Of a stretch of DNA of 64,000 nt, positions 40,171 to 43,173 are shown piece after piece (the first letter of the stretch is position 1; each line of letters begins with the position of its first letter). The stretch comes from Deltaproteobacteria bacterium (lineage in GTDB: Bacteria > Desulfobacterota > Desulfobulbia > Desulfobulbales > Desulfobulbaceae): contig JAJRQC010000062.1 of assembly GCA_024280455.1 (NCBI GenBank), forward strand, positions 1 to 64,000, written 5' to 3'. The position numbers and the translations under genes are program-made. A model generated the notes under the pieces. That model did no database searches and had not been told where the DNA came from. It saw only the letters and a program-made list of their open reading frames with translations.

Positions 40171-40421
40171 GCGGTCCTTGAACAAGAATTTTTTTTCATG
40201 TGTCCGGATTTTGAACACGTAAATTTGAACTGATTACCTGCAAAGCTCAGCTTGTCACGAATCAGGGATAACATCGCCTGTTCAACTGGATTGTAACAGC
40301 CGATGAATTCATATTTAGGTATAAATTCATTGGGTTGGTAACGCCCTTTGATATTCAGCGATGGTATCCCTATATCAGGCTGAGGATTGTGGGTAATCAG
40401 ATATTTTCATGGAGCAACAGC

Positions 40422-42587
40422 ATGGCCGAACAACAGCAGGCACCGGAAAAAAAGGCTCGTCAATTTGATCTGACCTCGCCCGAGTGGTATCTCAATCGTG
40501 AGTTGACCTGGCTTGAATTTAACCGCAGGGTGCTGCACGAGGGCCAGGATGCCCGAACGCCGCTTCTTGAGCGCATCATGTTTTTGTCCATTGTCGGCTC
40601 AAACCTTGATGAGTTCTTCATGAAGCGGATCGGCGGCCTCAAGCAGCAGGTCGGCGCCGGTTTACGAAAACTCACCGTTGACGGGCGTACTCCGGGCCAG
40701 CAGATTACCGAATGTTACGAGGTTGTCCGTGACCTGCTGAGCCAGCAGCAGAAACTTGAAGGACAATTGCTCGGGCTGCTTGCCAAAAAAAGCATTCGTA
40801 TCGTCAACTATCATCAGTTGACCAAGGCACAGAAGCAGGAGGTAGAGGGCTATTTCCTTGAAAATATTTACCCTCTGCTTACTCCCCAGGGCATGGATCC
40901 TGCCCATCCCTTTCCGTTTATATCCAATCTCTCTCTGAATCTACTGGTTTCCACCCGATTCAAGGAGGATGATCATGTCTATCTTAATCGTATCAAAGTA
41001 CCAACCGGAATCGGGATTCCGCGCTTTATCCAGATAGGAAAAGGGCCTCTGTATGTGCGCTTTGAAGATGTCATTGCCAATAATCTGGCGGCGATTTTTC
41101 CGGACATGGTTATTGAAAGCTGTGAGCTGTTCCGGGTCACCCGAAATGCCATCACCGAAAAGACCCTGGATCAGGCCAACGACCTGCTGGCCATGATTGA
41201 ATCCGCCCTGCGGGATCGGAAATTTGCTGAAATCGTGCGGCTTGAGGTCGGTAGCTGCATGACCCCGAATCATCGCGGAATGCTGACGGCAGAGCTTGGT
41301 ATCGATAAGGATACCGATGTCTTTACCGTTGACGGTATCATGGGCAAATGCGACCTGTTTGAAATTGCCTCCATTGACCGGCCCGAGCTCCATTATCCGC
41401 CGCATCAACCTCTTGATCATTACCGTCTGGCAGGTGACTCGCCCAATCTTTTTCATGTTATCCGGGAAGAAGGGGCTATTCTGCTTCAGCATCCGTATGA
41501 GTCTTTCGAGTCTTCGGTGGAACGTTTTCTTAAAGAGGCCAGTGTTGATCCCAAGGTGCTTGCAATCAAGATGACCCTGTATCGAACCTCCTCGGATTCG
41601 CGTGTTATCCAGTACCTGCTTGATGCGGCCCAGAACGGCAAACAGGTTGCCGTGGTCGTCGAACTCAAGGCCCGCTTTGACGAATCGGCAAATATCCACT
41701 GGGCCGGATACCTTGAACAGGCCGGAGTCCATGTAACCTATGGCGTTGTCGGCCTGAAGACCCATTCCAAGGTTGTTTTTGTTGTTCGGCGGGATTACAA
41801 CGGCCTCAAGCGCTATGCCCATATCGGCACCGGCAACTATCATGCCGGAACTGCCCGTATGTATAGCGATCTAGGCCTGTTGACCTGTGACCAGGATATC
41901 GGCGACGACCTGACCGAACTGTTTAATTATCTGACCATGGGCTATGCCCCGGCCAGGAAATATAAAAAATTGCTGCCCTCACCCAAGATCCTCAAGAAAG
42001 GGCTCCTCAATCGCATTGAGCATGAGATTGAGTATCACAGAAAAGAAAAAAACGGCTTGATCCAGTTTAAAACCAATGCCCTGGAAGACAAGGACATCAC
42101 CAAGGCATTGTACAAGGCTTCTCAGGCCGGAGTTCATGTGGATCTTCTTGTCCGGGACACATGCAGACTGAGGCCGGGAATCGAAGGGCTGTCCGACAAT
42201 ATACGCGTTATTTCCACGGTCGGCCGGTTTCTCGAACACTGCCGGATATATTACTTCAAAAATAACGGCAATGAGGAATATTATATCGGCTCAGCCGACA
42301 TTATGAAACGCAACCTTGAGGAACGGGTTGAGGTCATGACTCCGGTGGAACCTAAGGTGTTGCAGGTCGAACTCCGCAAAATCCTTGATGTACAGCTTAA
42401 AGACCGGCGAGGTGCCTGGGAAATGCAGCCCGACGGCACCTATATCCAGCTGCAGCCCACCGCCCGTGGAGAACAGCGCAGTGCTCAGGAACAACTCATG
42501 GAAATGGCGGAGAAAAGGCTGGCCGAGGCCCGGCGTTTATTTAAGAAAAAGAGTAAGAAAAAGATCGCCAAACGTAAACGCAAATAA
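40422..42587 (+). CDS. ppk1: Polyphosphate kinase 1
   Basis: Makes polyphosphate from ATP reversibly. The 721-residue sequence shows YLNRELTWLEFNRRVLHE near residue 20, FLSIVGSNLDEFFMKR, VKTLYR-type ATP-binding IKMTLYRTSSDS, the phospho-histidine region YAHIGTGNYHAGTARMYSD and a C-terminal EEYYIGSADIMKRNLEERV. The ATG at 40422 has GGAG upstream and fits the family N-terminus; the frame is open to 40335. The C-terminus is Lys-rich. The 250 bases before it hold no gene; an AT-rich inverted repeat (ATGAATTC.. near 40302-40334) may be regulatory. Confidence 0.96.
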   Translation: MAEQQQAPEKKARQFDLTSPEWYLNRELTWLEFNRRVLHEGQDARTPLLERIMFLSIVGSNLDEFFMKRIGGLKQQVGAGLRKLTVDGRTPGQQITECYEVVRDLLSQQQKLEGQLLGLLAKKSIRIVNYHQLTKAQKQEVEGYFLENIYPLLTPQGMDPAHPFPFISNLSLNLLVSTRFKEDDHVYLNRIKVPTGIGIPRFIQIGKGPLYVRFEDVIANNLAAIFPDMVIESCELFRVTRNAITEKTLDQANDLLAMIESALRDRKFAEIVRLEVGSCMTPNHRGMLTAELGIDKDTDVFTVDGIMGKCDLFEIASIDRPELHYPPHQPLDHYRLAGDSPNLFHVIREEGAILLQHPYESFESSVERFLKEASVDPKVLAIKMTLYRTSSDSRVIQYLLDAAQNGKQVAVVVELKARFDESANIHWAGYLEQAGVHVTYGVVGLKTHSKVVFVVRRDYNGLKRYAHIGTGNYHAGTARMYSDLGLLTCDQDIGDDLTELFNYLTMGYAPARKYKKLLPSPKILKKGLLNRIEHEIEYHRKEKNGLIQFKTNALEDKDITKALYKASQAGVHVDLLVRDTCRLRPGIEGLSDNIRVISTVGRFLEHCRIYYFKNNGNEEYYIGSADIMKRNLEERVEVMTPVEPKVLQVELRKILDVQLKDRRGAWEMQPDGTYIQLQPTARGEQRSAQEQLMEMAEKRLAEARRLFKKKSKKKIAKRKRK

Positions 42588-42676
42588 GGTTTTTTTAGTA
42601 GATTTGGTTAAACGGATTTCCAGGATATTTTTTGTTATATTGGCCTGACTTCCCATTGATCCAATAAGGTTTTTTG

Positions 42677-42906
42677 ATGAGAAAGCGGGTTAAAATAGAC
42701 ATAGACTATCGAAAAGACTGTTGATGGGGCTTTAAAGACGTGCGGGCACGTCTGGAAAAGCAGGCGCCCGGAGAGCAGTTTCGCTTTCTCTGTGACCATA
42801 AAATGGCCAAACACTGATAAAATCATCATCAGGGTTCCTGGCGGCTATGCTGACGAAGTTGAAACCGTTCAATGCTGGGGATTGTAAAATAGGAGTACAA
42901 ATGTGA
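42677..42906 (+). CDS. Candidate TusA-like selenoprotein (in-frame TGA), with an apparent one-base deletion
   Basis: The ATG at 42677 (AAGG eight bases upstream) opens MRKRVKIDIDYRKDC, then TGA at 42722-42724, then WGFKDVRARLEKQAPGEQF in the same frame. With TGA read as selenocysteine, the residues after the Cys match E. coli TusA at the same offsets: V+7, R+8, P+16, G+17, E+18, D+25. TusA has Cys-Pro where this has Cys-Sec. As sequenced, the frame stops at 42815; restoring one A in the A4 run at 42800-42803 continues it as NGQTLIKSSSGFLAAMLTKL to a TGA at 42904 that overlaps the next gene's GTG by four bases. That gives about 76 residues, the normal TusA size. TusA proteins carry persulfide sulfur. 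The alternative is a decayed gene. Confidence 0.5.
42722..42752 (+). promoter_or_regulatory. Candidate bacterial SECIS element
   Basis: Directly after the in-frame TGA is a perfect stem GACGTG (42737-42742) and CACGTC (42747-42752) with loop CGGG. The loop begins 18 bases after the TGA and has a G in its first two positions, both within the known tolerance for bacterial SECIS hairpins. The stem is short, so chance remains possible. Confidence 0.45.
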
Positions 42907-43121
42907 ATCACCCAGGGGCAGGAATAGGCGGTTTTTTAATGCTAGCGGTATGGCTTTTCCTGATTGTCGCCGGGGTTATGGCAATCTTTGTACCGTTTTG
43001 GGTGTACCGGATCAGGAATGAAATCATTGGTACGAACAGGCGACTTGACAAGTTGATAGCTTTGTCAGAAAAAACCGGCCGCCGATCAAAAAAGTGTGGC
43101 GACATGGGGTCAAATCTTTAA
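42903..43121 (+). CDS. Small single-span membrane protein
   Basis: A 72-residue protein with one transmembrane helix (LMLAVWLFLIVAGVMAIFV) near residues 12-30 and a basic amphipathic tail (RIRNEIIGTNRRLDKLIAL). I do not recognise a named family, though small proteins of this pattern are frequent. The start is a GTG at 42903 with AGGAG eight bases upstream; the ATG two bases earlier is followed at once by TGA. The GTG overlaps the proposed end of the TusA-like gene (GTGA), suggesting coupling. Confidence 0.7.
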   Translation: MNHPGAGIGGFLMLAVWLFLIVAGVMAIFVPFWVYRIRNEIIGTNRRLDKLIALSEKTGRRSKKCGDMGSNL

Positions 43122-43173
43122 CCATGACAATATAAGCCTCCCTTACACTACCGTGCCTTACCTTATTGAAGGG

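Follow-up and report, generated by a model that had tools for sequence, protein, structure and literature searches.

Does an in-frame TGA codon in a Desulfobulbaceae contig terminate a short gene or encode selenocysteine (Sec) and, if the latter, what might the protein do? The codon lies in the window, a 64,000-nucleotide stretch of contig JAJRQC010000062.1, for which the initial annotation had proposed a small TusA-like selenoprotein with a Cys-Sec pair. Direct reading of the sequence in frame with the ATG at 42677 finds the TGA at 42722-42724, the Cys codon TGT (42719-42721) just before it and, as had been claimed, coding sequence on both sides. The conceptual readthrough peptide is MRKRVKIDIDYRKDC-U-WGFKDVRARLEKQAPGEQFRFLCDHKMAKH, with the frame reaching ...FLCDHKMAKH at 42814. 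The layout of the locus is as follows:

40335..42587, plus strand: ORF 5′ of the selenoprotein gene, which we take to be polyphosphate kinase-like; the same gene precedes the selenoprotein gene in other genomes of the genus
42666..42669, plus strand: AAGG, a putative Shine-Dalgarno-like element 7 nt 5′ of the ATG, read directly from the sequence
42677..42814, plus strand: surviving 5′ part of the gene, 46 codons including the Sec codon, defined by alignment and by tblastn and HMM matches in relatives, each with one TGA
42719..42721, plus strand: TGT Cys codon, in 61 of 61 codon-tabulated copies
42722..42724, plus strand: TGA, the predicted Sec codon, with TGA in 60 of 61 tabulated copies and TAA in one, and 123 Cys-Sec copies in a later scan
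42736..42753, plus strand: predicted SECIS hairpin, stem AGACGTG/CACGTCT, loop CGGG, the second loop base being an invariant G in 57 sequences
42815..42902, no strand assigned: unrelated DNA where the C-terminal half of the family is expected, after a breakpoint at 42814/42815
42903..43118, plus strand: ORF of 72 aa 3′ of the break, single-copy, lying outside the selenoprotein gene and matching no family above cut-off

The gene is far from unique to the window. A protein search found it in 31 of 57 related genomes, nearly all matches having exactly one stop, a TGA, and six-frame reading of the related loci shows the position of that TGA to be constant, following the Cys. Of 258 Desulfobulbia genomes, 82 contain homologues, and a phylum-wide sample of 395 genomes gave matches in 34, a few of them weak; Desulfobacterota is the only phylum surveyed and the only one from which the family is so far known. 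When all fetched loci were scanned with a profile, 123 distinct Cys-Sec copies were separated from 13 others; the homologue search with TGA allowed, proposed at the outset as a check, thus returned TGA at the same codon, after Cys, in all 123. Among 45 diverse members, the Cys and the TGA are the only invariant columns. Family proteins are about 70–83 aa long and fall into sequence types. The window copy belongs to the W-type (DYRxDC-U-WG; pattern MRKR.RIDIDYR.DC-U-WG..DVR.RL...); the K-type, of which genome G012 carries a copy, follows DYRGDC-U-KG.KDVRLRL..., and there are more distant groups, including one with DSR.DC-U-K...GVGLRFR. One search for close relatives on viral contigs gave none. 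Judged from these sequences, this is a new small selenoprotein family, widespread in Desulfobacterota.

Homologues thus keep the TGA in frame and have coding sequence before and after it, as is expected of a selenoprotein gene. In the part of the gene after the hairpin, dN/dS is 0.14–0.59 in nine closely related pairs of the same type; only pairs with pN < 0.2 were used, cross-group values being saturated or misaligned and left out. The part downstream of the TGA is thus under purifying selection.

Bacterial SECIS elements follow rules of a loop of 3–9 nt, a stem of 4–16 bp and a spacing of 16–37 nt after the TGA, with a G in the first two loop bases and an MFE of −7.5 or lower (PMC13188914). 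The window hairpin, with its 7-bp stem, its four-base CGGG loop, a spacing of 18 nt after the TGA, its invariant G and an MFE of −14.7, fits these rules, as the initial annotation had said. The fold of the region has a z of −3.66, and none of 200 shuffles was equally stable. Across the family, seven pairs join columns 15–21 with columns 26–32, counted from the T of the TGA; the four-base loop between them has G as its second base in 57 of 57 sequences. The hairpin cells are paired in 97.5% of cases, against 23–60% in slid controls, and five of the seven pairs show compensatory change with both sides altered. Synonymous shuffles retain a mean of 4.46 of the seven pairs, against 6.82 observed (z 17.8, uncorrected for relatedness). 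Codon choice follows the same pattern: the Asp codon inside the hairpin is GAC in 52 of 54 sequences, against 28 of 59 and 34 of 57 for Asp outside it, and the hairpin Arg is written with CGT or CGC alone, while another invariant Arg outside the hairpin uses six codons. Protein coding alone does not account for the pairing. An Rfam scan returned no matching family at the hairpin site.

The host is equipped to decode such a codon. The source genome contains selA, selB, selD and tRNA-Sec, the genes whose presence the initial annotation had wished to see checked; two of its selD copies contain a TGA of their own. A third selD (G000:C33:5715-7233) has no TGA and is split into two pieces within a single frame; behind it comes a TusA-type domain, the match to which includes a TAA, and the two may be a broken SelD-YedF pair.

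Exceptions to the Cys-Sec pair are few. No Cys-Cys form was seen among the 123 Cys-Sec copies and the 13 others. A Cys homologue at the Sec position, customarily looked for in selenoprotein searches and not needed for Sec insertion, is therefore missing here, and the replacements are Thr-Leu, Ile-Leu, Thr-Sec and Ala-Sec. Of the 13, two are weak matches that probably arose by chance, and the remaining ones comprise fragments or frameshifted copies, a TAA copy, an Ala-Sec copy and the members from genus g29. The TAA copy, from the window's own genus (L008; G001:C24:17467-17682, minus strand), keeps seven of seven hairpin pairs, and its TAA is either a recent loss or a sequencing error. The Ala-Sec copy (L197, in G474) has lost the Cys and retained the TGA and the hairpin (6 of 7 pairs). 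Genus g29 (L190, L188, L189, L153, L191) displays a step-like loss of the pair, as Thr-Sec, Thr-Leu (ACA TTA) and Ile-Leu, in which the Leu codon TTA is one step from TGA; g29 copies without the Cys-Sec pair have hairpins reduced to three to five pairs. Two loci first taken for 5′-truncated copies, L192 and L194, are frameshifted copies. Since there is no Cys-Cys form and g29 replaced both residues, Cys and Sec appear to be mostly kept and lost together.

The 3′ half of the window copy is another matter. After ...MAKH/R, intact relatives read MPRVI..GGEIL..D.RSYGVVILVHKK. One relative, L035, is 98.8% identical to the window in DNA over 42731-42814 and then diverges abruptly: past the point matching 42814 it keeps the normal C-terminus, while the window runs into unrelated DNA. 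The matching segment of L035 (L035:132-215, 84 bp) is preceded by unrelated DNA on a contig assigned to a Bacteroidetes bin and is probably a misbinned or rearranged copy. The initial annotation had restored one missing A to obtain a protein of 76 residues ending at 42906. The tail that this creates in the +1 frame, IKSSSGFLAAMLTKLKPFNAGDCKIGVQM, has no similarity to the family, and the same holds for every frame of 42815-42906. Searched with the profile in six frames, the window yielded the N-terminal part only, with no C-terminal family match, and neither a second family match nor a C-terminal remnant was found in the assembly. Since no frame matches the family and the remainder of the gene is absent elsewhere in the assembly, the one-base repair is unsupported; the TGA, the frame, the TusA identities and the hairpin of the original observation stand. 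We rejected the idea that a mobile element or a repeat marks the break, since 42815-43170 is single-copy in the genome. L036 (Victivallaceae) is a chance match to the altered tail of the window. The source genome thus has no complete family reading frame, the C-terminal half being replaced after 42814, and the window copy is, as far as its sequence tells, a pseudogene or a mis-assembly. It is the only copy in the genome and has lost the two C-terminal strands, so that it is probably non-functional, unless the contig is chimaeric there; a protein without its last two strands would be unlikely to fold.

Two alternatives touch on the gene itself. That the TGA is an ordinary stop, with a short peptide or pseudogene upstream and a separate or decayed frame downstream, draws on the TAA of genus member G001 and on frameshifts in two other copies. 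We regard it as scarcely credible: the codon is TGA rather than TAA or TAG in all but one of the tabulated copies, the frame is maintained on both sides across families, the downstream part has low dN/dS in close pairs, and the hairpin covaries and is weakened where the Cys-Sec pair was lost. The TGA is therefore best read as encoding the Sec of a Cys-Sec pair in a TusA-like protein. That the broken 3′ end is a chimaera of metagenome assembly, the organism's true gene being intact, has a real chance of being correct, a little short of even. The break at 42814 is abrupt, the assembly comprises 173 contigs with 4.83% contamination, and other family copies in the genus are intact. Against this, no C-terminal remnant turned up elsewhere in the assembly, and copies are broken elsewhere too (the TAA in G001 and frameshifts in G609 and G610), which makes real decay plausible.

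The family alignment gives an AlphaFold model with a mean pLDDT of 91.7 and a predicted β-α-β-α-β-β fold in which helix 1 starts at the Cys, as in TusA. The best PDB matches by Foldseek are YeeE(TsuA)-YeeD(TsuB) chains, with about 75 columns aligned (8k1r, E 2.4e-4); E. coli TusA is close behind (TM 0.73). Alignment of profiles by hhalign to TusA covers the C-terminal 49 columns (E 8e-5, probability 61). Pfam TusA is the Pfam family touched by the largest number of members (5 of 33 match, best E 0.036), and none reaches the PF01206 gathering cut-off. The identities that the initial annotation counted from the Cys (V+7, R+8, P+16, G+17, E+18 and D+25) are correct against E. coli TusA. The CPxP motif is absent: the Cys is kept, the first Pro is replaced by Sec, and the second by Gly or Ala in nearly all members. 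The modelled fold is thus TusA-like, the protein lies outside the TusA family by Pfam cut-off or CPxP motif, and its homology to TusA is remote. With the conserved TGA, the covarying SECIS, the purifying selection and the Sec machinery, the predicted fold supports the candidate small selenoprotein with its Cys-Sec pair.

Gene neighbourhoods vary. In three genomes of one genus, selB is directly 5′ of the family gene; in seven loci from two other families, a LysR-type gene holds that position. The LysR regulators at L253 (G342), L252 and L254 pass the cut-off of NCBIfam NF040786 (LysR_Sec_metab); that at L097, a fragment, has NF040786 as its best match, below cut-off. In G342, SelD and YedF are encoded 2–4 kb downstream of the family gene. 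In the window's genus, the gene follows a polyphosphate kinase-like gene, and K-type genes often follow genes that we take, judging by their sequences, to be leuA- and creA-like. Third-group copies (L115-L120 and similar, e.g. family f91) lie just 5′ of what we likewise take to be a tRNA-dihydrouridine synthase-like gene, with presumed agmatinase- or ABC-ATPase-like genes upstream. Most lineages thus have ppk, leuA-creA, dusB or other contexts, and selenium genes are found in some alone. The proposed selenium role finds support in gene adjacency across separate lineages, although the association is not universal.

We propose that the window carries a broken copy of a new family of TusA-fold Cys-Sec selenoproteins decoded through a SECIS, most likely serving selenium supply or sensing; as a whole, we hold this to be likely. 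SelB, tRNA-Sec and the adjacent hairpin would insert Sec at TGA 42722, so that helix 1 would carry the invariant Cys-Sec pair at its N-terminus in place of the Cys-Pro of TusA. The Cys may, as in TusA, accept persulfide sulfur or selenium. With Sec next to it, the Cys would form part of a fast thiol/selenol redox couple (Cys-S-Se-Sec), which could take up, reduce and pass on selenium or sulfur. Selenium supply or sensing is the most likely setting since the gene adjoins selB, a selenium-specific LysR regulator or selD-yedF in different lineages. It is tempting to go further and suggest, tentatively, a selenium carrier or sensor of the TusA fold that occurs only as a Sec protein, taking up selenide or a selenium-persulfide on the Cys-Sec pair and either feeding SelD or reporting selenium status. 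If so, the poorly known in vivo donor step of selenophosphate synthesis would fall to a protein that is itself dependent on Sec. Selenium trafficking to SelD is incompletely elucidated (PMC13188914); with the selB, LysR_Sec_metab and SelD-YedF links, it can be tested directly on a protein of 75 residues. The replacement of Cys and Sec in genus g29, along with the decay of the hairpin, offers a natural experiment on losing the pair.

A real TusA-fold selenoprotein might instead face the sulfur side, as a Cys-Sec thiol oxidoreductase or a sulfur or polysulfide carrier whose selenium neighbours reflect Sec-dependent regulation only. The fold and Cys position match those of the sulfur carrier TusA and of TsuB, the hosts are Desulfobacterota, most loci are without selenium neighbours, and the joint loss in g29 suggests that the two residues act as a pair. 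Direct adjacency to selB and LysR_Sec_metab in unrelated lineages, with SelD-YedF close by in one, speaks against it, and we give this reading an appreciable chance, clearly below even. The initial annotation's redox version of the persulfide carrier holds as to the pair and the TusA-like fold; the carrier role stays hypothetical, given the sub-threshold Pfam TusA match, the missing CPxP and links to selenium as much as to sulfur. A metal site for mercury, copper or arsenic, in a small metal chaperone or sensor, is improbable. The Sec of SaoB, SaoC and UXX-star has been suggested to act as a metal ligand, and CU motifs are listed in SaoC, SaoL, HgcA and MbdU (PMC13188914); the fold, however, is that of a sulfur carrier, and no mercury- or metal-resistance genes were recognised among the recurrent neighbours inspected.

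How does the family compare with known systems? TusA (YhhP/SirA-like, PF01206), the E. coli sulfur carrier for tRNA thiolation, shares its fold, length and the Cys before helix 1; it has Cys-Pro and CPxP, whereas the new family has Cys-Sec, lacks CPxP, falls below the Pfam threshold and is Sec-dependent. TsuB (YeeD), the TusA-domain protein that partners TsuA (YeeE), a thiosulfate transporter, is the best PDB fold match; it is not known to contain Sec, and no YeeE-like transporter was recognised adjoining family genes in the inspected loci. YedF (TIGR03527), a TusA plus DsrE protein of selenium metabolism, shares the TusA-type domain and a genomic tie to selenium genes; it carries CPxP and a DsrE domain (PMC5322559), whereas the new family has Cys-Sec and one domain only. 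Selenoproteins with a CU motif, namely KCU-star/DUF466, SaoC, SaoL, HgcA, MbdU and CopZ-like form 2 (PMC13188914), likewise have adjacent Cys and Sec, but in other domains, and when 33 family members were compared with NCBIfam up to E 10, none of the models of these proteins was matched. Sec also sits in the sulfur- or selenium-transfer folds of DsrE-like, rhodanese and YeeE/YedE selenoproteins, which differ from the new family in fold and motif.

Searches of Pfam, NCBIfam and PDB sequences gave no significant match to the family, and NCBIfam has no model for it. A TusA/SirA selenoprotein is absent from the 2022 and 2026 inventories (PMC9312934, PMC13188914), the latter listing 119 selenoprotein families (PMC13188914). 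The deep-Sep method reported 22 candidates in Desulfolithobacter dissulfuricans GF1, all from known families, and its new families all had Cys homologues (PMC12013277), unlike the present one. Screens based on Sec/Cys pairs would miss this family because it has no Cys homologue. We thus add a previously unlisted selenoprotein family, found in about one third of the Desulfobulbia genomes searched, that would place Sec in a TusA fold. K-type genes (e.g. L022, L025-L029, L071-L074) usually end in ...(E/V)(K/R)T-TGA, so that within this short gene TGA apparently serves as Sec codon and as terminator alike.
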